DNA of 64,000 nucleotides from Branchiostoma floridae (lineage: Eukaryota > Chordata > Leptocardii > Amphioxiformes > Branchiostomatidae), in contig NC_049979.1 of the NCBI RefSeq assembly GCF_000003815.2, positions 6,816,833-6,880,832 on the forward strand, written 5' to 3'. The notes under the pieces are model-generated. The model had not been told where the DNA came from, ran no database searches, and saw only the letters and a program-made list of their open reading frames with translations. A program made the translations under genes and the position numbers. Position 1 is the first letter of the stretch, and each line of letters starts with the position of its first letter. Shown piece by piece: positions 35,301 through 62,100 of the stretch.

Positions 35301-38086
35301 TTATGACTTGAGGCCGACCATCCTCTCACTGACGTCCCAGAGTCTGGCAGCTGCCTCGTCATCCATGCCTGCCGCTGACGTCTCCTTGGGCACGCAGTCA
35401 CTGTAATATGACACAAACAGTTTGCTAAAACTTTCTGTGTGGTACTTATATAGTGACACTCATGTGTAGCCACATGCCCTGATTGTCTGGGGGTTTTCTT
35501 AATATCCTACATTCACACATTGTTTAGTTGAGTTTTAAGATTAACTCTGTATCCACTTTGTTTTTGTAGTTTATATTTGACCAAACAACTGTACCTTTTG
35601 TCGTGTCAATAAAGCTTGCTATAAGCAGTTGAAGAGCACCAAGAAAGATAATCCGATATAAACGCACGGCTGGAAGACAGAAGACCAACCTGAAGTAAAG
35701 TCCGGTCGTGTTTTCCAGGTCCTCAGCCACGGCACAACAAATGCTTGTCTGCGCACCTTCCTCTACGGTTTTTCCGAACACGGAAAAAATGGCTCCAACC
35801 ACCTTCCTTAACGCACTGGCAACGTGTTCGCCAAATTTCCCCTGCCACTCGTCCCGTCGGTAGCGCATCAGGTCGGACTCCATAATGACTCCAGGATGAA
35901 GAGAATTTGAGGTGACTCCGGTACCTGTGTATGATTGGTAAAAACGTGCTATTTAGCTTCGGCGTCTACATCAGTACCTCAGTCTGTCAAGTTCTGAATA
36001 AGGTTTCGAGCTGAAACGTCGACTGCGTGTACATGTTCACAGTTGCAGCCACATTCTCGTAAAATGAGGCTGATCTTGTAGGAAAGAAAATAATGATAAG
36101 GGTTATGTCACAGTCTGGAGCTGTACAAAGTCGATAGTTTTCATGGAATAATACTCTTTGTGTGTGTCCCTATTCAACACTCAAAACTTTCGCTGGCTGA
36201 CAAATACAACATAAGCCCTGTTAACTATCTCAAATGTTGTACATGAGACAATGCACATCGTTTAGATAGGCTATTTGGTAGCGGTTGCCCTTACCTTTCA
36301 ATTTCTTTGAGAGCTCCCGTGAAAACAGAACATTAGCCAGCTTGCTGCGATCATACGCTTTTTCCAAATGATAGCTGTTCTGAGAATTGATATCGTCAAA
36401 GTCGATGCCGCTTGTGAAGGTGTGTGCCAGGGAGGCCACCGTGACAACTCGGCTGGGTGCGGACTGCCGGAGTTTGTCCAGGAGGAGGTTGGTGAGGAGG
36501 AAGGGGCCCAGGTGGTTCACTCCAAACTGCATCTCAAATCCGTCCTCTGTCTCCCATCTGGGAGTGTGCATCACGCCTGCGGAAAAACGAATCGGTGATC
36601 GCATGACCTTCGATGCTAATTAAGGTTTGTGTCTTATAATACAAATGTATAAAATGTATAAAACACATCGGATCTCAATGGTTACCTGCATTGTTAATCA
36701 GGACATCCAATCTTGGCTCAGCATCATTGATCACCTTTGCAAACTGTCTCACTGACGTCAGAGACGCCAGGTCAAGTTTGTGCACGACGACATTCTTGTT
36801 TCCCGTCTGACTGCGGATTTCTTTAGCAGCCTCCTCGGCTTTCTCCAGACTCCTGCAGGCGAGAATGACACGGGCACCTGGGATGGATGGAAACAATTAC
36901 TTACAACAATCTGTATAATCACGGTCATTTATAGGAACTGTACATGTGCGCTTCTGACAGAGGTCTAATTTTTTGTGTCAGTGCATTTCTGTACCTGCAA
37001 ACGGATTTTCGTCCTATAGGACCGCACTGTGAGTCAATGTTTTCTGACGTATCTCATATAAATTTGGTTCATTATATTAGTTCATTTTCCGCGCTCTGTC
37101 ATGTATACGTAGCCTTACCTCTCTCCGCCATGTCCCTGGCCGTGACCTTGCCGATGCCCGTGTTCGCTCCCGTGATGATGACCGTCTTGCCGTCCATCCT
37201 AGCCTGACTCTCACACACCCCTCCAGCTGCCCACCTGCGTACTGGCACGTACAGCACAGCTGCGGGGGCAAACAAGAAATAGTCAGCAAACAGCACGCTT
37301 ACTCGGGTCGGAACACCTGTGACGTACGTAATGGCGTGTACCGTTACAGCCTTGTTAGCTTTATGCCTTTAGTTCGTTTCCACGTGGGAATGCAGGACAT
37401 AAAAAAATTTAAAAAATAAAAAATAAGGGCCCACTGCTACATAATACGTTACTGCCATGCACTGAGAGGACACATAAACAAGTCGGTGTAGGCAGGCAAC
37501 AATGAGCTAACGTTTCCTGGCGTATGCAACGCGCAATAAAACAAACGATTATTTACATCAAGCGTTTCCATGGTCTAAACCGAAAAAAACTTTAACTATT
37601 TATCAACGAAAAAAATAAGAACTGCAATCTAACATTACAGCCATGTAAACGCATGTTGCTTCCCACAATTGATTCGAATCCAGGCATCGCTTACAAGTTA
37701 CATTATCAACTTGCCTGTATTATACTCTTCAAGCATTGCGTTTGAAATGAGATCTCATGTAACGTTATCAGTTCCAGCATGACGTGTTGACCGTAAGGGC
37801 AATGACCTCAGTAGAGCAAACTATCACAGTTACATTTCCGTCATGGTAGCCATTGAGCGGTCGTGAATTAGTTTCTCTCAATTTTGAAACTGGCATGGAA
37901 TTTGGCTGCTCTGATCCGAAAGAAGACCAAAATGTAGAACGAAGAAAGAAAGGTCAGGGGTCCATAATGATAAATCCAGCACCAGAATTAACCGGACCAA
38001 CGTGACTCGCTGTACATAGCATGACTGTGTTTGCTAACGTTACCTGCCACTAACACGACTGCAGCGATCTTGAGAAATTGCGCCAT
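35301..38086 (-). CDS. RDH13-like short-chain dehydrogenase, copy A
   Basis: NAD(P)(H)-dependent retinol/retinal (or related carbonyl) oxidoreductase, membrane-anchored by its N-terminus. Exons in transcript order: 38086-38044, 37259-37119, 36877-36686, 36576-36295, 35924-35690, 35400-35301. Phases close to 330 residues, the size of RDH13. Motifs: hydrophobic anchor [24 protein letters not shown] linker, Rossmann [17 protein letters not shown] region, catalytic Tyr-Lys pair YDRSK, HPGV. The tail ends [14 protein letters not shown], the family's usual ending. The substrate is inferred; related enzymes also act on other lipid aldehydes. An alternative upstream first exon pair exists at 39149-39194 and 38736-38816. 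It is the most diverged copy in exon 5 ([20 protein letters not shown]). The stop is TAA, as in B; C, D and E use TGA. Confidence 0.92.
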
Positions 38087-38287
38087 TGTAAGAATTCTGT
38101 CAGCACACGGGTTTCACGCTGCGCACGTCCGAAGTAGTTGCGTTGATTCTGAAGAAGTGGACTAGTCCTGTCTTCGACTGACTACCACACTAATACAGTA
38201 CAACGGGGCAGGAACAGGTGATCATGACCTGGGTCATGCCGTGTTTGACAGGAGTTAACCAATCACCTCCCTGTATTCATACTCTTA

Positions 38288-38300
38288 AGGTCATTGACCT
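38288..38300. promoter_or_regulatory. Perfect IR-1 nuclear-receptor-type site (AGGTCA-T-TGACCT)
   Basis: Two AGGTCA half-sites are inverted with one base between them. They lie about 200 bp upstream of the copy A start codon, close to a CCAAT box (TTAACCAATCA). A near-palindromic TGACCTGGGTCA lies at 38225-38236. In the duplicated block the matching site at 39396-39408 has one changed base. IR-1 sites are bound by RXR heterodimers such as FXR/RXR in vertebrates; use here is inference. Confidence 0.5.
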
Positions 38301-38352
38301 ATCGGTCACTCTGACATGCATGTCACGCCGACTAGAAATGAATGAGCTATAA

Positions 38353-38613
38353 CAGGGTTGGACTATGTCCCGGGCAAGCCAAGTGAAATAGCCTAGCTAT
38401 ATAATGACCTACCCCACTTGCCCGATCGGGCAAGTAAGATTTTGATATGCTTGTTACTTTTCACAGCCATGGCATCAGACATTGGTCAACACAGGAAAAT
38501 AGAGCCAATGATAAAATAATTCATGCAAATGAAAAAGAAAAATGCTTTTAAAAAATCATTTAAATTTCGGGCCAGGGAAAATAAAAAAAAAATAGATAAC
38601 TTGTCCAACCCTG
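38353..38613. mobile_element. hAT-like non-autonomous element (CAGGGTTGGAC ends)
   Basis: Left end CAGGGTTGGACTATG and right end CTTGTCCAACCCTG are inverted. The interior carries CTTGCCCGATCGGGCAAG. Relatives: about 39424-39691 (part of the segmental duplication), about 28065-28200 and 56765-56885. No obvious target duplication remains. The hAT assignment rests on the terminal sequence only. Confidence 0.6.
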
Positions 38614-38735
38614 GATACGGTATTTAATCATTTATGATTTGAAAACACGGCTATTCATGCTGACTTCACCTTCTCTGTATCCAAGTATACAAGAGCACTG
38701 TGAGGAGGGGGCGATATGGGTATAGCGATATTTAC

Positions 38736-38816
38736 CTGCAGCCAAAACTACGATCGCAGCGATTCTGGAAAGTCTCGCCATGTTAGAAGGATCCGAGTTG
38801 AACACGTACAGCACAG
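38736..38816 (-). other. 81-nt phase-neutral alternative N-terminal exon upstream of copy A
   Basis: Acceptor CTGCAG|CTGTGCTGTAC and donor GCAG|GTAAAT are both intact, and the exon is exactly 27 codons (phase 1 in, phase 1 out). It encodes [27 protein letters not shown], so it carries both the linker start (AVLYV) and a second membrane anchor with its own ATG (38781). It could be skipped, included, or used as a first exon. Confidence 0.6.
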
Positions 38817-39148
38817 CTGCAGGGGCAAAAAAGAGTCAGAAAACACTACAACACGCGGGCACAGCTGCTCACCGTGATGTGATTGTCATGCAGAAGGACA
38901 GCTGCGTACTGGCACGACTCTCTGTAGTATGACTGATTTCTAACGTTAACATCAACTCATAATTCCCGGAGCCCGATGCCATAATACCACCACATGGCGA
39001 AAAAGGCATGATTATACGAAGGTAATTTAAAGAGATGCATCAATGTAGCATTAGTAATCCTGACTTTAGATCTTTAGGTGTTGAAGACAATCTTGAGAAG
39101 GCCTCTGTAACAATGTTTTTGATGTGGCTGTATTTGAGTAGATGTTAC

Positions 39149-39194
39149 CTGCGGCCAAGACGGTGATTGCAGTGAACCTAAGAAGTGGCGCCAT
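39149..39194 (-). other. Alternative outer first exon upstream of copy A
   Basis: ATG at 39194 encodes [15 protein letters not shown] and ends in GCAG|GTAACA, phase 1, compatible with the 81-nt exon and with exon 2 of copy A. It lies in the distal copy of the duplicated promoter block, so copy A may have two promoters. It could instead be the remnant of a lost gene copy. Confidence 0.55.
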
Positions 39195-39750
39195 GGTGAG
39201 ATCTCTGTCAGCACACGGGTGTCACGATGTGTACGTCCGAGGTAGTTGCGTTGATTCTGAAAAAAAGGACCAGTCCTGTCTTCCACTAACCACCACACTG
39301 CTACAGTACGACAGGTCAGGAACAGGTCCGACTGAGCTGAGTCATGCCGTGTTTGCCAGGAGTTAACCAATCGCCTCCCTGTATTCATAATCTTAAAGTC
39401 ATTGACCTATCGGTCACTCTCACATGCATGTCCTACCCCGGCCCACTTGCCCGATCGGACAAGTAAGATTTTTCAATGAGCGAGATTTTGATATGCTTGT
39501 TACTTTTCACAGTCATGGCATCAAACATTGGTCTACACAGGAAACTAGAGCCAATGATAAAAAGATTCCATCTTCGGAAGTGAAAAAACATAGAAAAAGG
39601 TCGGGCTAGTGAAAATTTGTTTCGGGTAAGTAAATTTCCTATGTACTTGACCGATAGGATAAGTGTATTTTAGAAAACTTGTCCAACCCTGGATAAGGTA
39701 TTTAATCCTTTATGAATCGAGAACACGGCTATTCATGCTGACTTGACTGC

Positions 39751-41087: not shown

Positions 41088-43998
41088 TTATGACTTGAGT
41101 CCGACCATCCTCTCGCTGACGTCCCAGAGTCTGGCAGCTGCCTCGTCATCCATGCCTGCCGCTGACGGCTCCTTGGGCACGCAGTCACTGCACAGGGGAG
41201 TCAAATGTGATACTAGTAGTCAGATTTATGTGTCTCGTGTTGGCAGGAGTTTTGCATGTATATGTATAAGGACATCGCCTCAACACCAATACAGGTGACA
41301 CCTACCTGAAGTACAGACCAGTTGTGTTCTGCCATTCCTCAGCTACTGCACAACAGATAGTGGTCTGGGCTCCCTCCTCCCAGGTCTTTCCAAATATACC
41401 AACAAATCCTTCTATGACCTTATTGGCCACCTTGGAAAGTTGTGCCCCTTCTGCTCCATGTATGAGTTCCTCTTGATACCGGTGTAGTTCTGTGTAGATG
41501 ACCCCCGGATGGAGGGAATTTGATGTGACCCCAGTACCTGCAAAGTTTTACAAGAAGAATTTTTGTACAGATTTCCCCCCTAATCTTGCTATACTTCAGC
41601 GTATCAAGTTGCAAGCTTTACCTTTACAAACAGCAGTGGCGGTTCACTGAACTTTCATATCAACATCAGCAAGAGACTATAAAACTCACCACTCAACCTA
41701 AAAATCAGTTCTTTTCGATTTGCAGTTATACAAAGTGTCCTCAATGATTTATATCATTCTGCTGTCACTATATCCTAAAATGTAATCATTCTTTTCAACA
41801 CTTTATCGAGTTGACTGACATTTATGTTATCGTGTGTATTGTTTTTACCGTCTATATATTTCACACGTCTTGGAGTTGAACATCATGTTCATCATTTACC
41901 TTCTAACCTCCTGGCAAGTTCCCCGGAGAAGAGTACATTAGCAAGCTTGCTTCTGCGGTAGGACTCCCCTTTATCATAGTCCTTTTCATAGTTGATGTCG
42001 TCAAAGTCAATGCCACTCGTAAAAGCATGTCCCAACGAAGACACCGTGACCACCCTGCTGGGAGCAGACTTCTTCAGCAGGTCCAGGAGGAGGTTGGTGA
42101 GGAGGAAGTGGCCCAGGTGGTTGACTCCAAACTGCATCTCAAACCCGTCTTCTGTCTCCCATCTGGGACAGCCCATCACACCTGTACCAGTAATAGTGGT
42201 TATATATGGGAATTTACAACCAGACTAAAAAAACTTCGATCCGCCTCCAGCTCAGCAGTCAATGAAGCTTTGTATAACGGTAAAACAATTTCCTGTACTT
42301 CCGAAAGCGCCACCTACATCGGCTACACATAGCGGTGAGAACTCTGACGAAGGTGTCTGAGAGACATCGAAACGTAAGCAATGTAAGGACCTGCTGGTTG
42401 TGTAAAAAGAATCCTCCTATTTCCAATTTGCTGTACTTATGTGAAGAAACTTCTACTGTACCTGCATTGTTAATCAGGACATCCAATCTTGCTTCAGCAT
42501 CATTGATCACCTTTGCAAACTGTCTCACTGATGCTAAAGATGCAAGGTCAAGTTTGTGCACGACGACATTCTTGCTTCCCGTCTGACTGCGAATTTCTTT
42601 AGCGGCCTCCTCTGCTTTCGCCAAACTTCTGCAGGCAAGAATGACACGGGCTCCTGGGACAGCAGAGAATTAATTGAAAGAGGGAATGAATTAACAAATA
42701 AATGAATGAATTAATGGATGAATGAAATTATTTCTAAATATATTTTAGCTGTTGAACATAATCCACTTGCACTTTTATTTATGACAGATAAGTTTTTACC
42801 ATCGTCTGATTTTCTCAGGAAAGATAATTCTAATTAATTACAGGTTCCTCTTGTCTCTCCTTACCTCTCTCCGCCATGTCCCTGGCCGTGACCTTGCCGA
42901 TGCCCGTGTTTGCTCCCGTGATGATGACCGTCTTGCCGTCCATCCTAGCCTGACTCTCACACACCCCTCCAGCTGCCCACCTGCGTACTGGCACGTACAG
43001 CAAAGCTGCGGGGGCAAACAAGAGTCAGCAAACACTACAGCACTTCTTGGGTTAACAGTACCATGTGGTGCTATTCACAGGATTATTATATCAATAGCGC
43101 AAGAAAAAAATGACTGACAGGAATATCGTGTCAATATTGCAAAAACACTCTTATTGATAGGAACATACTATCTCTTCTTGACAGGAACATTTTGTCGACA
43201 ATAGTGCGACAAATAACGTCCTTGGTATCAGAGATCGGATCGAAGAAACCATCAATGCCTCAGGTGTAACGTATTGTACCAACAATACGTGTTCGGTGAC
43301 CTGCCTTGCCAAGTTCTCTAAAGATCTATAACATGTTGTCAAGGATCTTATACTCAATGTAATGCCCTTGATGTGGTTAGGACGCGATTCCTGAGGATGC
43401 AGTATCCAAGTATCCAAGAGCACTGTCGGGAAGGGGGCGAAGTGAGTATTGCGATATTTACCTGCAGCCAAAACTACGATCGCAGCGATTCTGGAAAGTC
43501 TCGCCATGTTAGAAGGATCCATGGTGAACACGTACAGCACAGCTGCAGGGGAAAAAAGAGTCAGAAAACACTACAACAAGCTTTAAGCGGACACAGCTGC
43601 TCACCATGATGTGATTGTGTATTGATATAAGGTCACATAACATTATATAGGACAGCTGCAGGGACGAATCAAACAAGACACAATAAGTAAAATTATCATA
43701 ATACGGACACAGAAGGGCAGTTGCGTACTAACATGACTTTCTGTACTTTCTGTGCTCTAATGATTCCACCAGATGACATAATACTGCCACATGGGGAAAA
43801 TGTCTGAAATTAAAGTGATTTAAAGAGATATACTAATGCAGCATTAGTCCAGACTTTAGATATTTAGGTGTTGAAGACAATCTTGAGAAGTACTCTATAA
43901 CAATTTTTTTTATATATGGCGGTATTATGGCACCCGGCGGAATAGATGTTACCTGCGGCCAAGACAGTGATCGCAGTGATCCTGAGAAGTGACGCCAT
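41088..43998 (-). CDS. RDH13-like short-chain dehydrogenase, copy B
   Basis: Same fold and role as copy A. Exons in transcript order: 43998-43953 ([15 protein letters not shown]), optional 43542-43462, 43005-42865, 42653-42462, 42181-41900, 41537-41306, 41187-41088. The frame closes to 330 residues without the optional 81-nt exon, or 357 with it. Motifs: [33 protein letters not shown], catalytic [23 protein letters not shown]. Against the other copies it has [10 protein letters not shown] in exon 4 and a lone SLGHAF variant near the catalytic serine region. Both N-terminal exons keep good splice signals, which makes B the clearest example of the ancestral layout. Its upstream sequence is related to the copy A promoter blocks. 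Confidence 0.92.
42306..42380 (+). repeat. Retroelement-tail-like fragment (pair with 47199-47287)
   Basis: CGCCACCTACATCGGCTAC...GAGACATCGAAACGTAAG occurs here on plus and, slightly changed, on minus at 47199-47287 in an intron of copy C. Its 'GACGAAGGTGTCTGAGAGACATCGAAACG'-style ending (read in two parts) resembles spacer sequence that follows many metazoan retroelements. The class is unproven. Confidence 0.4.
43462..43542 (-). other. 81-nt phase-neutral N-terminal exon of copy B
   Basis: Acceptor CTGCAG|CTGTGCTGTACG, donor GCAG|GTAAAT, 27 codons reading [22 protein letters not shown] and on to VLAA. It has the same borders and phase as 38736-38816. Including it would insert a second hydrophobic anchor after the first; starting at its internal ATG (43507) would replace the first anchor. 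Confidence 0.65.
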
Positions 43999-44639
43999 GG
44001 TGAGGTTCGTGTCAGCACAGGTGGGCCACGCCTGATGTGTGCACCCGAAGACGTTGCGTTGATTCTGAAAGAGGCCCAGTCCAATCCTCCACTAACACAT
44101 TAGTTCAGCACAATATGGTAGGAAATGGTAAGGACTGTGCAGATAACTTCGTGTAAACAGAGGGTCATTAGCCTATCGCCCAACACTTCATCCGCCAAAG
44201 GAAGTTAATGATTGATCATCCATTGATTATTATCGGGAACAGCGTTTTTCATACCTTCGGTTACGACACAACATTTTAATGAATATTTAAACATTTGTAT
44301 TGGTACAGGTTTTACCACCAGATTTGTGGTATGAATTTCATGAACCGAAAGAAGAAAGTAAGAAAATTCTTCACACAAAAAGAAGATACTAGTAGCCATT
44401 ATATTGCAAAAAGTTTATTTTGTAACCCAACGTGCAAAACAGCATATGCAGTATCCTCCTTCAGAAGTAAGTAAAGATAAGTGTGGCAATAAAAACTATT
44501 GCCATGGTGACGGTTTTACTGTTTATATTAATTACTAGTATTGATGATTGTTGTTTTAGGTGTGTTGTAGTTATATTCTATCCTTTCGCCTGGCTGTATG
44601 TATGAAGATTGCTTTATGTAACATGCATGTTTGAAGGGC

Positions 44640-45600
44640 ATTGCTGTTAACAAGAAAGGCGATCTCTTGTGACGAGTGACCTATTATAAATGTTTCTCAT
44701 TGATCATACAAATGAGGTCCTAATTTGCATAAACGATATCAGTTGATCATCTCCTCTGCTTAAATAACAATGTGTTCAAAGTATGAAAGTCTTAGCAAAG
44801 AAAGCTATTGTAGCATTTTCTCATCATGTAAAAGAGACCCTAATTTGCATGACTTACGTCTGCATGTTCAACTTAACGTACATGTTCCTGCCAAATGTCG
44901 CAAGAATGGAATTTTCGTCATTTAACACTATGATACAAAATTTCTCATCGATTATGTAAAATAGGTAAAAATTTGCATAATTGATGTCTATCGATATTTC
45001 TCTCTTTTCAAGTTACATATGTCATGTTTAACAGTTGAAGTGTCCTAGTATAATGAAATTAGTATTATGTGGCTTAATAAACTGTGCCAATTAGTTATGC
45101 AAATTATCCCATGGTTTGCATTAATAGTCCTTATTTATAGAAGGCATCTCCGAAGTTATTTACATATCAAAAATCACGATGATCCGTCAACCCTTTCCCG
45201 AGTTATTCCCTTCCAAAAGTGTGGTGCAAATGCGCACGTGCAGATGAATTGCTGTGGAATTTCGAGAATTTTTGCCAATCAGATATATACCTAACAATAA
45301 ACCTTATAATCCTCTCTTTTTTAGTTACATATGGCATATTTAGTCGTATTCTAACATGAAATGCAGTGTATTTATGAACTGTCCTCATTAATTATGCAAA
45401 TTAGCCCTTGATTTGCATCATTAGCATTTAATCATGTAAGGCATCTCTGAAGCTATCTACATTTCAAATATCATGAAGATCCATCAACCCATTCCCGAGT
45501 TATTCCTCTCTAAAGGGATGATGCAACTACACAGACGTGGAAAAATTCATTTTGGGAATTCTTGTCAAACGGACGCACACTATACTAGTAGGCTAGCACT
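44640..45600. repeat. Octamer-rich dispersed repeat family, copies upstream of RDH B
   Basis: Two or more diverged units with ATTATGCAAATTAG/ATTTGCATCATTAG inverted pairs and AAGATCCATCAACCCATTCC-like phrases. Same family as 49826-50360, 53632-53945 and 59995-62141. No coding capacity. Confidence 0.65.
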
Positions 45601-45951
45601 GATGATTGCAACCTAATCTAAATACACGTACTACATTGCACTTCAGCAGTAATATGTTCACGCAAGTATCCATCTGATAATAACCGAATATTCCAGGAGG
45701 CAAAAAACTACATTGATAAGGCACCAGTTGTATAGCTTACATAGGCACACATTCTACAGTACTTTACATGGCACAGTGTCTCAGAGGTCAAGTTAATTCT
45801 AGCTTTTTTTTTCAATCTGGAACTTGTGATGCACTCACAAATAAGCATAATTGCATAGCTCTGTAACATGACTGTAGTCACATCATCTGTGATTGTACAT
45901 TTCTACAAGGTGGCTTTAAATTTCGCAACCCATGACATTCTCTGAGTGACG

Positions 45952-48900
45952 TCATGACTTGAGTCCGACCATCCTCTCACTGACGTCCCAGAGTCTGGCA
46001 GCTGCCTCGTCATCCTTGCCTGCCGCTGACGTCTCCTTGGGCACGCAGTCACTGCACAGGGGATTGAAATATGTCAGGTAATCGTATGGGTCTTACTTTG
46101 GCAGGAAATTTGCATGTAACATTACATGAATATCACCACAAAGTCATTACTAACAAAGGTGGCACCTACCTGAAGTACAGACCAGTTGTGTTCTGCCATT
46201 CCTCAGCTACTGCACAACAGATAGTGGTCTGGGCTCCCTCCTCCCAGGTCTTTCCAATCACACGGACAAATCCCTCCATTAAAATGTTGGCCACCTTGGA
46301 AAGCTGTGCACCTACTATTCCACGTATGTAGTCCTCTCGATGTCGGTTTATTTCTGTGTAAATGATTCCCGGATGGAGTGAGTTCGATGTGACCCCAGTA
46401 CCTGCACGGAAGAATTTAACAGATTGATCAAATCTTGATCATAGTATCAGCACATCTTAGGCTGAGAAGCTTTTCCTTAACAAATTAGAGCTGTGCCGAC
46501 AACAAACACATAGAACACTCAAACACAAAGACACACTCAAAACAACATGTCCTTTTTCACAGAGGTAAACCTGGTTATTCATTGAAGCTTTGTCCCAACA
46601 CCAGTAAGCGTTTATAATTATTTCATACCCTTCATAATTCATAACACTACAACCTAAAAGGTAGTGCTTCTTTTATTTCAGATGCACAAAATGACACCCA
46701 TGATCTACATTACTACAAGCACTAAAACGTTAACATTTATTTAGCATTGAACATGTTCATTCATGTACCTTCTAACCTCCTGGCAAGTTCCCTGGAGAAC
46801 AGTATATTGGCCACCTTGCTTCTGTAGTAGGACTCCTCTGAATCATAGTTATTCTCATAATTAATGTCGTCAAGTCATGCCATTCGTAAAATGTGAGCCT
46901 CAGAGGCCACCGTGACGACCCTGCTGGGGGCAGACTTCTTCAGCAGGTCCAGGAGGAGGTTGGTGAGGAGGAAGTGGCCCAGGTGGTTCACTCCGAACAT
47001 CAGCTCAAACCCGTCCTCTGTCTCCCATCTGGGGCAGGCATACACACCTGCACCAGTAATAGTGATTATATATGGGAACTTGACAGTCAAAGTCTTGAAG
47101 ACTTCGACTTCAAGACCTCGATCCATCTTTGGTTAAGGAAGCTTTGTTTAACAGCAAACAATTTCTCACACACATTCATTTTTTTCTCATCTACTGACGT
47201 TTCGATGTCTGTCAGATATCCTACTCAGAGCTCTAACTGGAGTTCTGCTTCTCGCCGCTATATGCACCCGATGTAGGTGGCGATTTTGCGGCGAGAACAC
47301 TATCCCAAACATGGCTTAGCAAAGAAAACTCTAATGTCCTATGATGCACCAACCTGATGAAATTATTTTAGGGAAGAAAACAATTTCCTGTACTTACATG
47401 TATGAATGGCCATATCACCGAACTTGTACTGTACCTGCATTGTTAATCAGGACATCCAATCTTGGCTCAGCATCATTGATCACCTTTGCGAACTGTCTCA
47501 CTGACGTCAGAGACGCCAGGTCAAGTTTGTGCACGACGACATTCTTGTTTCCCGTCTGACTTCGGATTTCTTTAGCAGCCTCCTCTGCTTTCTCCAGACT
47601 TCTGCAGGCTAGAATCACACGGGCACCTGGAGGATGGACAGAGAATTGACTGGGAATAATTTCCATTGAAACATTACATTGCACAGTTTTTTCTCTTCGG
47701 ACTTACAAAGTTTTGTATCAATTGATAACGTTTACCTCAAAAGGGCTTAAGGATTAAGGTATGGTACGGCCGTCTGGCGCTTGGGATACACCCAATCCCT
47801 CGATCTAGGAAGTTAAGCAACATGCAGTCCGGACAGCTCTTGGATGGGAGACCACTCAAGGACGACCGGATGCTGTAGCCCGACCAGGTCTGAGCCCGAC
47901 TCAAATGTCCACGAAATCGTCTTTCGGAAGGGACGTAAAACGGGGGTTCCGTGTTCGAGGAGGCGCCTCAAGCACGCATTAGCTCGATCATACATATTTT
48001 CACACTTAACAAATTAACGTTGCACTTGAATCTAAAAGATTAATATATATACTCTTCACGACAGATGTTTTTCCTCTCTGTAAGGTTTACAAAGACCATT
48101 GTAATCTTGTTAACTAGTTGAATCACGTTACTCCTTGCTGTGTCTCCTTACCTCTCTGCGCCATGTCCCTGGCCGTGACCTTGCCGATGCCCGTGTTCGC
48201 TCCCGTGATGATGACAGTCTTGCCGTCCATCCTAGCCTGACTCTCACACACCCCTCCAGCTGTCCACCTGCGTACTGGCACGTACAGCACAGCTACAAAC
48301 AAAAAGCAGTTAGCACACTGACTCAGACTGCACAACTACGGCATATAAATACCTTGATATCGCATACAGGAGCGGCGTCCGCCTGTTGTGCCCTGTTCTT
48401 CGCTCTTCATGTGACGTACCTGCGACTCTGGCCTAGTATCTATCTAGCCTAAGACCTGAACTGGTAAACGCTATCAGCTGTAACGTATACTACTGCATCT
48501 GGTAAAGAGTTCCAGTTAGAGACAGTTCTGACACTACAGCATAGCTGCAGGGACAAGACACAGTCGGTAACACTTATTGCGTACTAACGTGAGTCAAGGT
48601 TGTGACATAATCCTCTCTCGGGTCCGATCACCCTCCGGCCTTCGGGCGATCATCTTCACGATCGGGCTGGAATACACCGTCTTGTATTCAAGCGTCATAG
48701 TTTGTGGCAGGTGGAAGATTAGCAAATAACAATTATGCAAATAAGTCCCTAATTTCCATGATTAATGTAAAAGTGTCAATTATTCTAAGTAATGTAGCAA
48801 ATAATTGGATTGTCAAAATTGTGACCTGTGTAAGTAGTAATAGTTAAAGATTTTTGTTTTATTTAGATCTCCGTTAGTGATATTGTTGACAGGAACATTT

Positions 48901-49243
48901 CTGTTATTGCAACAAATTCTCATTGACGGGAGCGTCCTGTCATTCAATACCCTGGGTTATTAAGTGTCCGATTGAAGGAACCATCAACTTCGGGTGCAAC
49001 GTAATATGACGTTACCGACACTGCAGTGAAATACGTATTCCATGCCAAGTTCTGTTAATAGTCAAAGGTCTATAACATGTTGTCGACCTTTATATGTCCA
49101 ATATAACGTCATTGATGTTGTTAAGGATGTGGTTCAGGATGCAGAGCACCGTGGGGAGGGGGGCGATATGGGATCATATGGGTGTGGCGATATTTACCTG
49201 CAGCCAAAACTACGATCGCAGCGATTCTGGAAAGACGCCCCAT
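45952..49243 (-). pseudogene. RDH13-like copy C, frame broken in exon 4
   Basis: Six exons align with the other copies: 49243-49198 ([15 protein letters not shown]), 48292-48152, 47626-47435, 47047-46769, 46401-46170, 46051-45952. All splice sites are intact. Exon 4 is 279 instead of 282 nt: three one-base T deletions (minus strand) lie within about 25 bases at about 46870-46895, where copy D reads CACGTTTTTACGAG...GACTTTGAC. Between the first and last deletion the frame is shifted and meets TGA, so the protein would end after [10 protein letters not shown], before the catalytic YYRSK. Downstream the frame is restored. Everything else ([14 protein letters not shown]-terminus) is normal. It is either a young pseudogene or a consensus error in T runs; the intact remainder leaves both open. 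Confidence 0.8.
47757..47995 (+). mobile_element. 5S-rRNA-derived SINE (SINE3-type)
   Basis: The head follows 5S rRNA: GGTACGGCCG, then GATCTAGGAAGTTAAGCAAC (5S has GATCTCGGAAGCTAAGCAG), AGCTCTTGGATGGGAGACC and GACCGGATGCTGTAGCC. These cover the internal RNA polymerase III promoter of 5S. An unrelated body (GGGACGTAAAACGGGGGTTC..., CGCATTAGCTCG) follows. It lies in the first-half introns of copy C, antisense to the gene. It is not a functional 5S gene because the 5' helix is mismatched and a non-5S body is attached. Confidence 0.85.
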
Positions 49244-49486
49244 GTTAGAAGGGTCCAAGATGAACACCTGTCTTGTCGGCAACTGAACAGGTGAAAAAAT
49301 GTCGACAGGACCGACAGGTTACTAGGTAACGTTATCAAACCCGGATCTACGGTGCCGGCTGCCCTGCGTTGTGTAACCGTGACGAAGAAGAGGTCATCGC
49401 CCTACAGCCCGTTGACACTCTTTTTCCCATTCCATGTGACAGTTCCCGGTGGCCAATGCATGCCCCCCAATTGCAGGCTGACCCTA

Positions 49487-49560
49487 ATCTCCAAGCAGAT
49501 TCCTCCGTGGCATAAGACAGTAACATAAGCTGGGGAAGGAGTTAAGCCGGCAGAGGAGTA
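49487..49560. mobile_element. Half-copy of the AATCTCCAAGC palindromic element
   Basis: TAATCTCCAAGCAGATTCC, the GTGGCATAAGACAGTAACATA phrase in part, and AGCTGGGGAAGGAGTTAAGCC match the left half of 23556-23715. The right half is missing. Confidence 0.6.
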
Positions 49561-49825
49561 AAATTGATTAGGCTGGCCCTTCTTGCTCCTGGGAGCAGGG
49601 TGCGCGGCGTTGCTGTGAGAACGCGTAGCCACATGAGATAGCGATGGTTATCATCGGCTAACTCGGTATCATTACCGGAGGGACCCGAGCATCGCAGCTC
49701 AGTCAGTCAGTGGTTATAAGATCTATAACATGAGGTATCACTGATGATGCCAAAGAAGAAAAAAAGCCAGGACAACTTTGTTTGACCCGGAGAATAGGAA
49801 GAGAATTGAATGGAATGAATGAATG

Positions 49826-50360
49826 AAATAGTTCGGTGACCTCATACCCCCATGAAATAGACTTTATGCAGATGACTTCCACATTTACATAATTTGTGCA
49901 TAGTGATGTTCACCCTCAGCTAACATACACACATAATAAATATAAAGATTCCGCCATTTATGACTCATTTATCATTAAGCAGTTCCTCCTTTGCATGTTT
50001 CGCATCTGTTTAAGTTCCACCCGCCATGAATTACATGACGTTTTACATATATTGAAGTTCACCGATGGAAAGATACGATTTCCTCATTAATTATACAAAT
50101 TAAGTCCTCATTTGCATAATATGCATATATTAAACCGTGTACTTATTTGTCTAAGCTTCCTGCATGGCTATAATGATGGAAGTCTGTCATTCCTTTCTTC
50201 AGTTATCCTCTTTGAAATATTTTGACAAAAATGGCCCTGCAGTACCAAAATTAAATGTTAGGGGGTCCGGGGCGGGGTTTGGTCAAACATGCCCCACCTT
50301 GTCCTGACATAAAAAACAATCTGCCACCCAAAAATGTGAAGTCAGGGACAAGGGATACAT
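49826..50360. repeat. Octamer-rich dispersed repeat, copy upstream of RDH C
   Basis: Starts TAGTTCGGTGACCTCATACCCC and carries the CTCATTAATTATACAAATTA / CTCATTTGCATAATATGCAT pair, then ACAAAAATGGCCCTGCAGTAC. Same family and order as the units at 59995-62141. Confidence 0.7.
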
Positions 50361-50425
50361 TTAAAAACTGCTATGATAAAACATCTCATTGAGCAAGACG
50401 GTAAAAATCCTGACTACTATCTCAA

Positions 50426-50479
50426 CAACCCAACCTCTGCTTGGAGAATAGCCAAGACTGTCCTGAGAAGTGACGCCAT
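50426..50479 (-). pseudogene. Relic outer first exon of copy C, donor replaced by a MITE end
   Basis: ATG at 50479 starts MASLLRTVLA, the same as the copy B first exon apart from a small deletion. Where B has GCCGCAG|GTAACA, this copy runs into ATTCTCCAAGCAGAGGTTGG, the terminal repeat of the local TACTCTCC element family. No donor remains, so copy C must start elsewhere (49243). Confidence 0.65.
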
Positions 50480-50879
50480 GACGACTTCAGAACACACCAT
50501 CTGGACTTCTTCGGTTACAACACAACCTTTTAATGTTGATGTGAACACTATACACAGTGTATATCCATATCATGATACATGTAAAATAGCATTTCAGAAG
50601 GCAAAAAAGAATACATTGAAAATTCATTTATTGTATAACTTACCAGTGTTGCCACGAAAGTATGTACATGCACACAAACAGACACACATGCTACAGTACA
50701 ATTCAAATTCACCCTCCATCCAACCTGGAACTTGTGATGCACACACAAATAAAGCACAATTGCATAGCTCTGTAACATGACTGTAGTCACATCACTTGTA
50801 ATTCTAGATTTCTAAAAGCGGGCTTTATATTTTGCAACCCATGACATACTAGTACAATGTACTAGTACTCTGTGTGACG

Positions 50880-53312
50880 TCAAGACTTGAGTCCGACCAT
50901 CCTCTCACTGACGTCCCAGAGTCTGGCAGCTGCCTCGTCATCCTTGCCTGCCGCTGACGTCTCCTTGGGCACGCAGTCACTGCACAGGGGATTAAAACAT
51001 GTCAGGCAATCGTATGTGTTTTACTTTTGCAGCAATTTTGCATGTAACGTTACATGAACAACACCACAAAGTTAATACCAACGAAGGTGGCACCTACCTG
51101 AAGTACAGACCAGTTGTGTTCCGCCATTCCTCAGCTACTGCACAACAGATAGTGGTCTGGGCACCCTCCTCCATGGTCTTTCCAAATATACCAGCAAATC
51201 CTCTCATGATCTTATTGACCACCTTGGAAAGTTGTTCACCAACTATTCCACGTATATGTTCCTCTCGATGTCGGCTTAGTTCTGTGTAGATGACCCCCGG
51301 ATGGAGGGAGTTCGATGTGACCCCGGTACCTGTAGAAAAGAATTTAAAGATTTACACTCAAAGCTTGATCACAGTATCTGCTGACAAGCTTTTCTTTTAT
51401 AAATCAGACATTGAAGATCTACATTACTACTGGCTCTAAAACATCAACATAAGTTTTTGAGGCAAACACCAAGTTCATTATTTACCTTCTAACCTCCTGG
51501 CAAGTTCCTTAGAGAACAGTACATTAGCCAGTTTGCTTCTGTAGTAGGACTCCTCTCTACTGTAGTCATTTTCATAGTTGATGTCGTCAAAGTCAATGCC
51601 ACTCGTAAAAACGTGTGCCAGAGAGGACACAGTGACAACCCGACTGGGTGCGGACTGCTGGAGTTTGTCCTGGAGGAGGTTGGTGAGGAGGAAGTGGCCC
51701 AGGTGGTTCACTCCAAACTGCATTTCAAACCCGTCCTCTGTCTCCCATCTGGGACAGGCCATCACACCTGCACATATAGGCCATATTCATTTACTAGTAT
51801 CTAGAGGCCATGTTCATTTTCATATGTTGGGAGTTAATAGTGAGAGGAAATACACTACACACAGTGCAGAAATGGAAATTACGGGACACAAGTCTCTATG
51901 AAGCTTAAGAATAAAAAACAAAGCTTTAATATTCAAGAATTACATGTACTTTTAATAACCATGTCAATGAACTTGTACTGTACCTGCATTGTTAATCAGG
52001 ACATCCAATCTTGGCTCAGCATCATTGATCACCTTTGCAAACTGTCTCACTGACGTCAGAGACGCCAGGTCAAGTTTGTGCACGACGACATTCTTGTTTC
52101 CCGTCTGACTGCGGATTTCTTTAGCAGCCTCCTCTGCTTTCTCCAGACTTCTGCAGGCGAGAATGACACGGGCACCTGGGGAAAAAGCAGAGAGTTGATT
52201 GAACATTGTTGAAATTTATCCCCAGTTGGGCAAAGCTTTTTTTAGGCTTACTTCTATACCTTAGAATTACACTTGAATCTAACAAAGGAGATTACAGAGC
52301 ATATACACTTTATGACAGATAATGTTCTTCCTCCAGGTAAGGTTTTTAGGTTACATGAATCACGTTACTCCTTGCTGTCTCTCCTTACCTCTCTCCGCCA
52401 TGTCCCTGGCCGTGACCTTGCCGATGCCCGTGTTCGCTCCCGTGATGATGACCGTCTTGCCGTCCATCCTAGCCTGACTCTCACACACCCCTCCAGCTGC
52501 CCACCTGCGTACTGGCACGTACAGCACAGCTACAAACAAAAAGCAGTTAGCATACTGACTCACAACTGACTGCACAACTAACGTTGAATACCTTGATACC
52601 GGATACAGGAGAGAAGGCGTCCGTCTGTTGTGTCCTGACTCCTGGTCTTCACTCTTCATGCGACTCTCCCAGTATTTATCTAGCCTAGACTTGAACTGGT
52701 TAACGCTATCAGCTGTAACGTTAACTACTATATTATGGTAAAGAGTTCCAGTTAGAGACGGTTCTGAGATTATGGCATAGCTGCAGGGACAAGACACAGT
52801 AGGTAACGTAACACTAATTGTAACACTAAGGTGTGACCTGTGACCTATTCCTGCCCTCGGGTCCAATGGTCACATGGGTGACAATGCTATGGTCTTGATG
52901 TTTACGTTACAGTAAAATACGTCTTCTGTGACCGGCCATTTTCTTTCTTTCTTTTCTTTCGTTTTTGAGGCTACCAACTTCAATTTGCTGAAGACTTTTG
53001 TAGCCTATATAGGAAAGTCGTGTAAAGTGCCTTTCCCAAGGGCACAAGACCGGTGACGGTGGTCCTTCTGGACCTGAGTCAAACGTGCTGACGATTGCGC
53101 CACGCGGTCCCACAATGTTCTGTTAATAGTCAAAAATCTATAACATGTTTTCAAGAACCTTAAACTCAATATAACGTCCTTGATGTGGTTTAATACGAAT
53201 ACTCACGGTTCAGGATGCAGAGCACTGTGGGGAGGGGGGCGATAAGCCGGGTATGGCGATATTTACCTGCAGCCAAAACTACGATCGCGGCAATTCTGGA
53301 AAGACGCGCCAT
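50880..53312 (-). CDS. RDH13-like short-chain dehydrogenase, copy D
   Basis: Exons in transcript order: 53312-53267 ([15 protein letters not shown]), 52529-52389, 52175-51984, 51767-51486, 51329-51098, 50979-50880. The frame closes to 330 residues. Motifs are complete: [39 protein letters not shown], catalytic [23 protein letters not shown]. The first exon is the type that is internal in copy B. Here its acceptor (CTGCAG|CTGTGC) is missing and it must act as exon 1. This copy is intact and the best reference for the broken copy C. Exon 2 and exon 3 are nearly identical to those of A, C and E, as expected for recent duplication or gene conversion. The retinoid substrate is inferred from the family. 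Confidence 0.93.
53010..53115. repeat. Retroelement-tail-like fragment (GTGCCTTTCCCAAGGGCACAAG)
   Basis: The phrase GTGCCTTTCCCAAGGGCAC followed by AAGACCGG...GATTGCGCCACGCGG is a common metazoan repeat-tail motif. It sits in the first intron of copy D. Class not assigned. Confidence 0.4.
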
Positions 53313-53631
53313 GTTAGAAGGATCCAAGGTGAACACCTGTCTTTGTCGCCAACTGTATAGGTGTAAAAAATGTCGACAGGATCGACAGTTTTCTAGGTAA
53401 CCCGGATTTACGCTGGTGCCGCCCGCCCTGCGTTGTGGAACGTTTACACTACCACTGGAACATGACGAGGTCATCGCCCTACAGCACGTTGGCACTCTTC
53501 TTTCCCTTCCACGAGATAGATATAAAAGGCACCCATGATACTGATAAAAGCTCCTTGGATAGACCAACGGCCCGCATAGAGCTTTAGAAGACCCTTCTTC
53601 TGGGAGCAGGGTGCGCGATGTTAGAACTAGT

Positions 53632-53945
53632 TCGGTGAGATCATACCCCCATAAAATACTAAGACTGTAATGCAGATGACTTCCATAATGATGCATAGTG
53701 ACATGTTCACCCTCAGCTAACTTACACATAGAATAAATATGAAGTTCCCGTCATTTATCATTAAGCGGTTCCTCATTTGCATGTTTAGCATCTGTTTATG
53801 TTTGCACCCGCCATGAATTACTTGTTTTACATATATTGAACTTCACTGATGGAGAACGTTGGAATTATTCGAGTTCCTCATTAATTATACAACTTAAGTC
53901 TTCATTTGCATAATATGCATATAACTGTTCTTTGTCTAAGCTTTT
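53632..53945. repeat. Octamer-rich dispersed repeat, truncated copy upstream of RDH D
   Basis: TAGTTCGGTGAGATCATACCCCC, then CTCATTAATTATACAACTTA / CTTCATTTGCATAATATGCA. It aligns with 49826-50160 and occupies the equivalent position relative to its gene, so it was probably duplicated with the gene. Confidence 0.7.
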
Positions 53946-53949
53946 TTTT

Positions 53950-54017
53950 GACAACCCAACCTCTGCTTGGAGAATAGTCAAGAAGGTGATTGCAGTGATC
54001 CTCAGAAGTGACGCCAT
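53950..54017 (-). pseudogene. Relic outer first exon of copy D, donor replaced by a MITE end
   Basis: ATG at 54017 encodes [14 protein letters not shown] and then runs into ATTCTCCAAGCAGAGGTTGG, exactly as in the copy C relic. The shared breakpoint means the insertion preceded the duplication that separated C and D. Confidence 0.7.
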
Positions 54018-54032
54018 GACTACTCGAGAACA

Positions 54033-54244
54033 TACTGTAAATGCAGAAATGTTCGCGGTGGATTAATGTTCGCGGTTTTCGCGTTGACCACTTCACTGGG
54101 AACTTAAATCCACCGCGAATATTTTTCTATTATGGTATTAGACTGTAGTCTACGGTGTTACCGCGAACTTAAAACCACCGCGAAAAGTACCTTTTCCCGC
54201 TACCGCGAAATTAAATCCCCTCGAACTTAAATGCATTTACGGTA
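54033..54244. mobile_element. Palindromic MITE-like element (TACTGTAAATGC ends), copy 2
   Basis: Ends TACTGTAAATGCAG...AAATGCATTTACGGTA with TTCGCGG/CCGCGAA interior, closely matching 6398-6586 but with an extra block (GACCACTTCACTGGGAAC). Only 16 bases from the relic exon of copy D. Confidence 0.8.
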
Positions 54245-58000: not shown

Positions 58001-58908
58001 CAGGGTGGACACCTGTGACATACTAATATGTATATTCCTTCAGGGACGACATAAACCACTGTTTCTTGACTGGTAATCTAATGTAATAATTTGTTGCCAT
58101 GCCTATTAATAGGAACATTCTGTCAATAGTGAAAAATTCGTGTTGACAGGAAGTAACAGCAATTCTTTTGAATCAGTTTAACGTTATATCCAGTTAGTGA
58201 ACTATATTATGACCTAGACAGAGGTTACATTGATAGCATTGCATTAGAAGGTCCATTTTATTGCATCATATGGTCCGAAGAGCCATCGCCTACAGTGGAC
58301 CCAGCATCTGGAACAGTCACCACCAGACATACGCACATCCCCAACTCTGGCTTCCTTTAAGACCGAAATGAATGGACTGGAATCATGTCTCTCGCTATTA
58401 TGTATTTTGTACGTTATGTAAGATTATAACGTTATCTTACATAACTTACACAGTTATAAGACTCATTAGGACTTTAAACTGCATCTCTGTTATATACATT
58501 GTCTGACCCTTGCCTATTTCCTCATGACCTTTATGAAAAGCGGCCTGCAGGCCGATTTGAGCTTTCATGAATAAACAAACGTTCAAACAAACAAAATATC
58601 CAGTCGATAGCCTCCGGCCATAACATCATTGAACAGACGGACGGTGACGATTTCGGGTGTAAACTAACATGTGCAAAAAATATACCAACATCGCAGTAGA
58701 AAACGTCTTCTGTGAGCTGACATGCCGAGTTTTGTCAATACTTAAAGGTCTATATAGCCTATATAACGTTAACGCTCTGTATTGTGGAATCAAATGGTTC
58801 TGGATGCGCAGGGTAATCTTACTGTGGGGGAGGGGGGGCGATGTGGGTGTGGCCATATTTACCTGACGCCAAAACTACGATCGCTGCGATTCTGGAAAGA
58901 CGCCCCAT
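55068..58908 (-). CDS. RDH13-like short-chain dehydrogenase, copy E
   Basis: Exons in transcript order: 58908-58863 ([15 protein letters not shown]), 57111-56971, 56545-56354, 56171-55890, 55504-55282, 55167-55068. The frame closes to 327 residues. Exon 5 is 9 nt shorter than in B-D, removing three residues in frame (GAQLSKVAN becomes GTQVAN). Motifs intact: [39 protein letters not shown], catalytic [23 protein letters not shown]. Exon 5 starts with VKSNSLHPG where others have VTSNSLHPG. Its start codon lies only about 225 bp from that of the divergent GST gene, so the two probably share a promoter region. Intron 1 holds two LINE fragments. Confidence 0.92.
56765..56885. mobile_element. hAT-like element fragment (CTTGTCCAACCCT end)
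   Basis: AAAATCTTACTTGCTCGGTCGGGCAAG...GGAAACTTGTCCAACCCTAA, related to 38353-38613 and to about 28065-28200. One terminus only. Confidence 0.5.
57163..57489 (-). mobile_element. LINE 3' end fragment (reverse-transcriptase tail plus 3' UTR)
   Basis: The minus frame from about 57489 to 57238 encodes [20 protein letters not shown] and continues [10 protein letters not shown]...SFKERLQ, the C-terminal tail of a LINE reverse transcriptase, ending in a stop. The 3' UTR follows, shared with 7725-7950, and ends in TATAGATACAGATACAGA repeats. It lies sense to copy E in intron 1. Confidence 0.8.
58255..58595 (+). mobile_element. Second LINE family, 3' end fragment
   Basis: GTCCGAAGAGCCATCGCCTA encodes [15 protein letters not shown], a pattern typical of LINE reverse-transcriptase C-termini, then a UTR with GCGGCCTGCAGGCCG and a tail of AATAAACAAACG...CAAACAAAC. 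Different family from 57163-57489. Confidence 0.65.
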
Positions 58909-59133
58909 GTTAGAAGGATCCAAGGTGAACACCAGTTTTTGTCGCCAACTGTAGAGGTGAAAATTGTCGACAGGATCGACAGTTTGCTTGGAATACAATA
59001 ACCGGGTCTACAGTGCCGGCCGTCCGCCTGTTCAACAAACTGATATAGTAAATCACGGAACCTGAACTTCAAGAGGTCATCGTCCTCAATTGACCTCATC
59101 ACTTTGCTTTCTCTTCCAGGTTTCCGGATTCCA
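58909..59133. promoter_or_regulatory. Shared divergent promoter region, RDH copy E / GST
   Basis: Only 225 bp separate the two start codons. The block is homologous to sequence above copies C (49244-49440) and D (53313-53510): GTCGCCAACTGTA, TGTCGACAGGATCGACAG, and AAGAGGTCATCG (or a close variant). AGGTCA lies at 59074-59079 (49391-49396 in C, 53468-53473 in D), with an inverted TGACCT at 59091-59096. An acceptor just before the GST ATG (CTCTTCCAG, AG ending 59119) suggests that GST has an upstream non-coding exon, so the real promoter may extend into copy E. Confidence 0.5.
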
Positions 59134-62100
59134 ATGGCACCTAAGTACAGGCTGGTATACTTCAACCTAAGGGCGCGAGCGGAGCCAACAAGACTAGTGT
59201 TCGCCGCTGCAGGGGTAGACTATGAGGACGTCAGGATCCAAAGGGACGAGTGGCCTGGTCTCAAGCCCAGTATGTCCCGAGGAGTATTAAGGGGTGGCGT
59301 GTTGGGAGGGGGGCGGGGAAGTGGGATCTTACGGTAGTCTAACGGACGCCTTGGCAAGTACTAATATTAATACCCCCTGCTTGGACCATCCTTGAAACAG
59401 GGATGTTCAGGCTCTGGGGAGATTTTCATCTCCTTGACTTTCAAACGGGGGCCAATTCCGTCTTATTTTCTTACGGCGATGTATTTTCCATGCAGTCGAA
59501 TAAGGATAGAATGAAGCAGGTATGGTCATGCTTATTCAATTTGATATTAATGACAAACTAAGTTTTTGAAGGCAGACTGTGGTAGGCATGGGGAAAACGG
59601 GATAGAGGGATGTCGTTTGAATAGAAGTAAGCTTGAGTACAAAACCACCAAACGTTGGTAAGCCAAAAAATAAAATTAGAGACCACGTGCAGCTCAGTTC
59701 GGTTGGCAGGAGCCCCGTACAGCACCATTTCTCTTACGGGTGATCTTCCAGGTGAAAATTCAAGACATGAGAGAATTTCTCTTGTTCCCCCAGACACCCC
59801 CATGGGCCAGCTGCCTGTGCTGGAGGTGGGCGGGGTCACCATCTGTCAGAGCATGGCGATAGCGCGCTACGTCGCCAAGGAGACCGGTAGGTCGCAATAG
59901 CGCGTCAAATATTTGCTAGCCTTACAATGTCAATGTTCGATTGGGGGAGACATCGTGTTTTCTTAATAGCCTTTGGTATCTAGACAGATAAAGAACTAGA
60001 GTTCATACCTCCATGAATATTTAGAGCTTTTGTAAATTTCATGCAATTGACTGATACATTAACATAATTTCTGCATGGTATTGTTCACCATTGACTAACG
60101 TACACGTGTCACAATAATAAAATTCCCACCATTAATTATAAAGTGGTTTAGCAACTTTTACATAAATTATGCAAATAAGTTCCTCATTACCATATTTGGT
60201 ATCTGCTTTTAATCCACCCATCATAATTAACATGTGTTACATTTATTGAAGTCCAGTTATTGAAAACAATCGAACTATACAATTTCCTCATTGATTATGC
60301 AAATTTATTCCTCATTTGCATAACATGCATATCATTATGAACATCTTTGCCCAATGTACCTGCATGCCTAATATGATGCCAATGCCTCAATCCTTTCTGC
60401 AGTCATCCTCTTTGGAATGTCTTGACAAAAACGCCCCTGCAGTTCCCAAATTAAATGATAGGGGACTGAAACTTGCTCCATTTTGTCGTGACACAAAAAG
60501 CTATCTACCGCTTAAATGTTAAGACCATAGCATGTCTAGAACAAGAGATACATTGAAAAACTGCTATGATAGAATGTTGTCATTAATTATGCTAATGTGC
60601 TCCTATTTTGCATAATTAGTATTTTATCTTGTACAACATTGTCTAAGGTACCTACATACCAAAAATGATGAAAATCCGCTGTTGCCTTCTTGAGTTATCC
60701 TCTTCAGAAGTTTTTGACAAAAATGCCCCTGCTATCCCAAAACTAGACGCTAGGGAGCCCAAACTTATGTCGCTTCTTCCTGAGCACAAGAGCTATCTAA
60801 CACCTCAAAATCGTGACCATAGCTTGTTCAGAACACCTAGATAGCAAAACCGGAAGTTGCGCTGCAGTACCAAGGGGAGTACCTAGGGGGCCCAAAATCT
60901 AATCATTTCCAGCTTTCATCACACACTACCAACACACCAAGTATGAAACCAATCCAATCAACCGTTCTTGAGTTATTTTGTTTACACACACACAGACAGA
61001 CAGACAGACACACACACAAACGCAGGGTAAACTAGAGTTTGGCGACCTCATACCTCCATGAATATTTAAAGGTTTTGTTAATTTCATGCAAATGACTTAA
61101 CATTAACATGATTTATGCATGGTGTTCTTAATCATTGAATAACGTACAGTACACATGTCACAAGTAAAATTCCCAATTCAGATCATCAATCATTAAGTTA
61201 TTTGCAATTTTTGCATGAATTATGCAAATAAGTTCCTCATTTGCATATTTGATATCTGCATATGTTCCACCGATTATAATTAACAAGTGTTACATTTATC
61301 GAAGTCCAGTTATTGCAAACAATGGAATTATACGATTTCCTCATTAATTATGCAAATTAATTCCTCATTTGCATAAAATGCATATCATTATGAACATCTT
61401 TGCCCAAGCTATTTGCATACCTAAAATGCAGGCAATCCGTCGTTCCTTTCTGCAGTTATCCTCTTTGGAGTGTCTTGACAAAAACACCCCTGCAGTTCCA
61501 CAATTAAATGTTAGGGGACTGAAACTTGCCCCACTTTGTCATGACGCTAAAAGCTATCTACCACCCGAATGTCACGACAATATCCCGTCTGAGACGAGAG
61601 ATACATTAAAAAAACTTCTATGATAGAATATTCTCATTAATTATGCAAATGTGGTCCTATTTTGCATAATTAGTATTTTATCTTGTACAACATTGTCTAA
61701 GGTACCTACATACCAAAAAACATGAAAATCCGGTGTTCCCTTCTTGAGTTATCGTCTTCAGAAGTTTTTTTACAAAAATGCCCCTGCTATCCCAAAACTA
61801 GACGCTAGGGGGCCCAAACTTATGTCATTTCTTCCTGAGCACAAGAGCTATCTAATACTCAAAAATCGTGACCATAGCATGTTCAGAACACCAAGATAGC
61901 AAAACCGGAAGTTGCGCTGCAGTACCAAGGGGAGCCGCTAGGGGGCCCAAAATCTAATCATTTCCAGCTTTCACCACACCCTACCAACACACCAAGTATG
62001 AAACCAATCCACCCAGCCGTTCTTGAGTTATCTTGTTTACACACACACAGACACACACACAGACAAACGCGGCGTAAAATATAACCTCCATGACATTTCA

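Follow-up and report, generated by a model that had tools for sequence, protein, structure and literature searches.

Evidence for exon-role switching through a hybrid 81-nt exon in a tandem array of short-chain dehydrogenase-like genes of Branchiostoma floridae

Deletion between tandem paralogs makes hybrid genes, as in the Lepore-type globin and CYP2D hybrids, and exon shuffling and intragenic exon duplication are known sources of extra exons. In this study, we describe a hybrid exon in a 64,000-nucleotide stretch of the Branchiostoma floridae genome (assembly GCF_000003815.2, contig NC_049979.1, positions 6,816,833 to 6,880,832; hereafter the window, numbered from its first letter). The minus strand of this window carries five tandem genes resembling the short-chain dehydrogenase/reductase (SDR) and RDH families, in the order E, D, C, B, A from 58.9 to 35.3 kb, which we take to be RDH11-14-like short-chain dehydrogenases. 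As in the Lepore-type and CYP2D hybrids, the 5' end of one tandem copy would here be joined to the body of another; theirs join at homologous places, whereas in this array exon 2 is joined to a 5' leader and the role of an exon appears to change. As in exon shuffling and intragenic duplication, a phase-compatible extra exon repeats a protein segment, in this case the N-terminal anchor, but the exon is a hybrid that includes what would be a former untranslated leader and does not come from the leader of the outer exon. HYDIN2, reported as a gene born by incomplete duplication and fusion (PMC5345166), is similar in that a truncated copy gains the 5' end of another gene; it differs in that here another gene of the same array would be the donor, a paralog, and what had been the first exon would be kept as an internal one. 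Among the titles and abstract openings found in literature searches, we recognised none as concerning this array or such internalisation of a first exon.

Two kinds of 5' end and a hybrid exon

Homologous exons hold different roles, with different upstream sequence, among the five paralogs, which at the level of sequence supports exon-role switching. The original prediction had proposed such switching, from internal to first exon and with a miniature inverted-repeat transposable element (MITE) as its cause; the switching itself stands, whereas its direction appears reversed and the case for a MITE as cause falls short. Two kinds of 5' end can be distinguished. Type X, an outer exon with its own upstream block, is found before A and B and at A', a third first exon of copy A, and survives in C and D as a relic exon only. 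Type Y, an inner exon with a 24-nt leader and an upstream block, is found in E, D and C; block, leader and first exon are continuous in all three, and in E the block fills the 225 bp up to a GST-like gene. The upstream sequences of X and Y show no detectable likeness in any of the four ranges tried (p 0.12-0.91). The predicted positions of the outer exon and the phase-neutral 81-nt exon of B were confirmed, as was the presence of inner ATGs at 49243, 53312 and 58908 in C, D and E; the outer exon, the 81-nt exon and A' of copy A are additions to that prediction.

The 81-nt exon of A and B is composed of two parts that overlap by 3 bp (Table 1). The left part corresponds to an exon-2 acceptor region, with the first 14 nt of the exon and about 36 nt of the preceding intron, and the exon is Y-like from nucleotide 12 on. 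Thus B 43578-43529 matches B 43042-42992 at 88% over 51 bp (E 1e-12), and for A 38854-38803 against the same segment of B the figure is 90% over 52 bp. From B 43531 and A 38805 onward the exon is homologous to the first exons of C, D and E, and the right part is 91-93% identical to them over 65-70 bp. Left and right parts each occur unfused in sister copies, the pattern of a hybrid made by deletion between tandem paralogs. Over the 60 nt upstream of the junction, the exons of A and B resemble the exon-2 region of B (49 of 56 and 47 of 54 positions, p 0.001 against shuffles) and C, D and E resemble one another (p 0.001 for each pair); five of the six pairs that set A or B against C, D or E do not rise above shuffles (p 0.15, 0.48, 0.61, 0.04, 0.13 and 0.10). 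Downstream of the junction, all ten pairs are 85-93% identical over 130 nt (80-92% with MAFFT).

In a search of the genome (513.4 Mb, 431 contigs), the hybrid exon was seen in A and B only, among the 40 of 829 candidates scored. The two exons differ at 3 of 81 sites, all within the leader-derived part, and B has gained an in-frame ATG within the exon that the other four copies lack. The read-through frame of outer exon, 81-nt exon and exon 2 is open in both A and B and has two separate hydrophobic regions, whereas the other forms have one. In RDH11-14-like SDRs, as in the array genes, an SDR domain with TGANTGIG follows a hydrophobic anchor at the N terminus; the read-through form of A and B would differ from them in carrying two anchor segments.

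Table 1. Positions of the features in the window
Feature	Position	Strand	Remarks
Hybrid exon of B	43462..43542	-	81 nt, phase-neutral
Hybrid exon of A	38736..38816	-	81 nt, 96% identical to that of B
Left part of the hybrid	43529..43578	-	Copied from the exon-2 acceptor region through nt 14 of that exon
Right part of the hybrid	43462..43531	-	Leader (24 nt) plus first exon, as in the type Y copies C, D, E
Overlap at the hybrid junction	43529..43531	-	GTG, 3 bp
Exon 2 of B	42865..43005	-	
Outer first exon of B (type X), coding part	43953..43998	-	46 nt, ends GCAG/gt, phase 1
Outer exon of A (type X)	39149..39194	-	
A', third first exon of A	38044..38086	-	Phase-compatible with exon 2
Upstream block of A' (type X)	38088..38669	-	Diverged second copy of the block that precedes the outer exon of A
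First exon of C (type Y), coding part	49198..49243	-	
Leader and upstream block of C (type Y)	49244..49442	-	
First exon of D (type Y), coding part	53267..53312	-	
Leader and upstream block of D (type Y)	53313..53519	-	
First exon of E (type Y), coding part	58863..58908	-	
Gap from E start codon to GST start codon	58909..59133		Type Y block, 225 bp, probable two-way promoter
GST-like gene	59134..63777	+	Five coding pieces, head to head with E
Relic outer exon of C	50426..50479	-	Runs into repeat terminus; cryptic GT, score 8.4, wrong phase
Relic outer exon of D	53950..54017	-	Same terminus as C
Dispersed repeat between relic and Y block of C	49830..50390		Of 78 match rows (40 of 2598 candidates scored), 75 lie outside the array, most at query 91-651
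MITE-like element, outer intron of B	43763..43943		Starts 9 nt past the donor; 30-nt terminal inverted repeats, 80% complementary
Exons 2, 3 and 6 of A	37119-37259, 36686-36877, 35301-35400	-	Homogenised exons

Direction of change and alternative readings

Because both parts of the hybrid exist unfused in sister genes, and because C, D and E hold an unbroken run of block, leader and exon, the fused state would most simply be derived. The upstream block of C, D and E had been described as new; it is common to all three, but it is contiguous with the first exon, and since it is unbroken into that exon and in E reaches the divergent GST-like gene, it looks ancestral. The inner exon of these copies had also been thought to have lost an acceptor, a claim that five of the six pairs above speak against: the sequence upstream of it does not look like a decayed form of that in A and B, and a decayed acceptor is disfavoured. 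C, D and E moreover retain an acceptor-like AG roughly 40 nt ahead of the start. A change from internal to first exon would moreover start from an exon that is itself a hybrid of two unfused parts, and the Y block would have to meet the same 3 bp by coincidence.

The position of copy A matters here, since without chimerism in A a hybrid shared by B and by A, whose body is the deepest, would be ancestral. In a tree of the inner exon and intron, A and B split from C, D and E with a bootstrap of 100. The 5' stub of A (inner exon and start of the intron) is 92% identical to B, whereas its body (exon 4 to intron 5) is only 55% identical, and the likeness to the inner intron of B stops at 38677, just before the upstream block of A' (38669). 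From this contrast, and from where the likeness ends, we conclude that the 5' end of copy A is chimeric. At 38044-39747 this copy carries a stack of three first exons (outer, hybrid and A') and a duplicated upstream block, the block of A' matching that of the outer exon at 72% over 306 bp (39747-39442) and at 86% over 237 bp (39432-39196).

The sequences show the hybrid, its junction, the two classes of upstream sequence and the open frame; we infer the order of events, the deletion and all promoter use and splicing that follow here. In the lineage of A and B, a first exon was probably internalised by fusion to the exon-2 acceptor of another copy, in a rearrangement that joined type X to type Y. 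On the line leading to B and to the 5' stub of A, a type X gene would have been cut 14 nt into exon 2 and joined at the GTG to the leader of a type Y gene, in its simplest form by deletion between neighbouring tandem copies. Such a deletion would remove the Y promoter and set an exon-2 acceptor ahead of the Y first exon, so that this exon and its leader, 81 nt in frame, come to form an internal exon downstream of the X promoter and exon. The older Y start would be retained in C, D and E, and the X exon of C and D would have decayed separately. A deletion of this kind explains the change of promoter, the acceptor and the automatic compatibility of splice phase at both ends; the length of 81 nt may be divisible by three through a one-in-three accident or through selection. 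If the hybrid exon is spliced in, the protein would have two hydrophobic segments instead of one, and the doubled anchor predicts a testable change in the membrane topology of an SDR enzyme. The kind of rearrangement is ordinary and its junction unusually legible. For this one array, and on sequence grounds, it would provide, at base resolution, a case in which a first exon together with its untranslated leader came to serve as internal coding sequence, and suggests that the polarity of such changes of exon role can be read from the junction itself.

Several observations weigh against this account. Conversion within the array can scramble the order of events, the placement of B in the body tree is weak (bootstrap 52), and the outer upstream block of A is closer to that of A' (86%) than to that of B (75%), which is not predicted if the stub was simply copied from B. 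Upstream of the junction, B and C are marginally alike (p 0.04). Splice sites, scored with a small matrix trained on those of the array itself (25 acceptors spanning 4.8-17.7 and 20 donors spanning 8.0-12.6), are also unfavourable in part: both outer donors (A and B) score 6.6, lower than any of the 20 array donors, and the hybrid acceptor of B scores 9.0 against 15.9 for an unused-looking AG at 43655. With weak outer donors and a stronger rival AG, use of the route from outer exon to hybrid exon is uncertain.

The alternatives to this account overlap in the confidence we give them, and some concern mechanism or use and not direction. One of use is that the 81-nt exon is a passenger that is rarely or never spliced in, with B joining its outer exon to exon 2 and A using A'; this is a substantial possibility, if one we lean against. 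Skipping the 81-nt exon is in frame, with outer exon to exon 2 and A' to exon 2 both open, and the confinement of the differences between the two exons to the leader-derived part gives no evident sign of constraint. On the other hand, the hybrid exon of A has an acceptor score of 17.6, close to the highest in the array, and the donors of both 81-nt exons are strong at 11.6.

Another mechanism would leave the polarity unchanged and deserves serious consideration, although it is somewhat unlikely: local copying of the acceptor region. The exon-2 acceptor region would have been copied into a Y leader by template switching or conversion, with X and Y already alternative first exons and no X gene deleted. 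An X exon does lie upstream of a Y exon in B, C and D, and clear likeness to the exon-2 region is limited to about 51 bp. Further upstream, however, the outer intron of B outside the MITE-like element shows weak likeness to intron 1 of C (p 0.004) and D (p 0.012) over the 3' half of that intron, as if a whole first intron had been transferred; likeness around a relic acceptor is what would be expected of the first intron of another copy. Relic sites resembling the exon-2 acceptor (ccctgcag/ct) lie at about 43655 in the outer intron of B and at about 48545 and 52782 in intron 1 of C and D.

Two further readings appear improbable. In the first, the ancestor was B-like, and C, D and E lost the outer exon and the acceptor of the inner one and took up a new promoter block, for example by capture of the GST promoter in E and its passage to D and C. 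The hybrid is present in both A and B, A has the deepest body, and the relics in C and D indicate that an outer exon once stood upstream of the inner one there. Against this, the incoming block would need to be joined exactly at the 3 bp where an already existing hybrid had its junction (by a rough count, a target of 3 among some 75 usable positions), a fusion is required in any case because the left part copies exon 2, and the history of the A stub differs from that of the A body. In the second, which we give similarly little credence, the inner exon of C, D and E is also internal, as an untranslated-region exon entered through an AG some 40 nt ahead of the ATG (49282, 53352 and 58948), and the true first exon would lie unseen still further upstream. 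Scores there are acceptor-like (11.9, 10.2 and 7.5; at least 10.2 is reached at 37 of 4007 AGs on the strand, training sites included), but the ATG of E lies only 225 bp from the GST start; by coordinates, the resulting exons would be 85, 86 and 86 nt long and not phase-neutral. Internal tandem duplication of the X exon as the source of the hybrid is disfavoured by the 24 nt before the hybrid's ATG, which match the leader of Y (p 0.005) and not that of X (p 0.28) in a comparison whose window for the hybrids was off by one base.

If deletion between copies is how the hybrid arose, it may not be an isolated event. The 5' ends number three in A, two in B, one plus a relic in C and in D, and one in E. 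Tentatively, and we think this rather doubtful, the array may shrink by deletions between copies, with the 5' end of each lost gene retained by the neighbour downstream of it, so that first exons and promoters accumulate; one break just inside exon 2 would have made the neighbour's first exon internal and doubled the anchor. Were this so, alternative promoters and first exons in tandem families could be fossils of deleted neighbours.

Relic outer exons and repeats

As originally predicted, the outer exons of C and D are relics whose donor is replaced by the same repeat terminus. Replacement occurs at the same point, by TATTCTCCAAGCAGAGGTTGGG, and C 50457-50425 and D 53983-53951 are 97% identical over 33 bp. 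The 22-mer of the terminus is exact in C and D and has six further near matches in the window (2-3 mismatches; 0.00 expected), as a dispersed terminus should; in C another repeat follows within about 60 bp. No complete element was found at the terminus: of three inverted pairs in 49780-50480 none starts there, and 53630-54060 holds none. Rescue of the relics by the cryptic donor of the terminus (8.4) is rejected, as it yields exons of 45 and 57 nt in phase 0, and phase 1 is needed.

The segment that precedes the outer exon in B is absent from C and D too. The B match ends at 44255, 257 bp before the ATG of B; the corresponding point in C is 30 bp from the ATG, and D has 240 bp at that point, about 208 bp of which are an insert relative to C. 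This insert, at 54036-54243 before the relic exon, has ends that look inverted by eye. With the stretch before the outer exon gone as well, a MITE as the cause of outer-exon loss in C and D is unestablished. The element in the outer intron of B is itself MITE-like, with terminal inverted repeats and many dispersed copies (39 of 46 match rows outside the array, among 40 of 829 candidates scored), and also occurs in A, in whose copy the terminal inverted repeats were not found. That it lies just behind an outer donor that is intact in A and B also counts against a MITE as the cause.

The array, its neighbours and exon homogenisation

TGxxxGxG, which binds the cofactor, and the catalytic YxxxK are the signature motifs of SDRs. 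By eye, translations of A to E all contain TGANTGIG, and the catalytic motif reads YYRSK in C and D, YRRSK in B, YHRSK in E and YDRSK in A. The D protein matches PF00106 (adh_short domain, E 7.1e-33), which places it among the SDRs, and PDB matches are bacterial and plant SDRs. An N-terminal hydrophobic anchor is present, with 17-residue hydropathy peaks above 2 in D, A' and the outer form of B. No sixth copy was found in 40 kb on either side (eight pieces of 10 kb searched). E and the GST-like gene stand head to head (58863-59134), and the E side of the block between them is also found in C and D. Exon 4 of C (46769-47047) contains an in-frame stop and is 279 nt long, against 282 nt for each of the others; this copy is probably a pseudogene, or has small assembly errors at this exon, and with this stop its only usable start, as it had been called, may not matter.

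Exons 2, 3 and 6 are 96-100%, 91-99% and 95-99% identical among the five copies. Elsewhere A differs strongly from the others, with identities of 35-58% in introns, 73-78% in exon 4 and 61-65% in exon 5. Fourfold sites show the same pattern, with 0 of 26 differing between A and D in exon 2, 1 of 31 in exon 3, 19 of 28 in exon 5 and 2 of 16 in exon 6. Homogenisation confined to exons may be a better lead than the hybrid exon. The homogenised stretches end at or near splice sites, and before exon 2 the likeness of A to B and E extends about 20-33 nt into the intron, so conversion at the DNA level fits better than a cDNA template.

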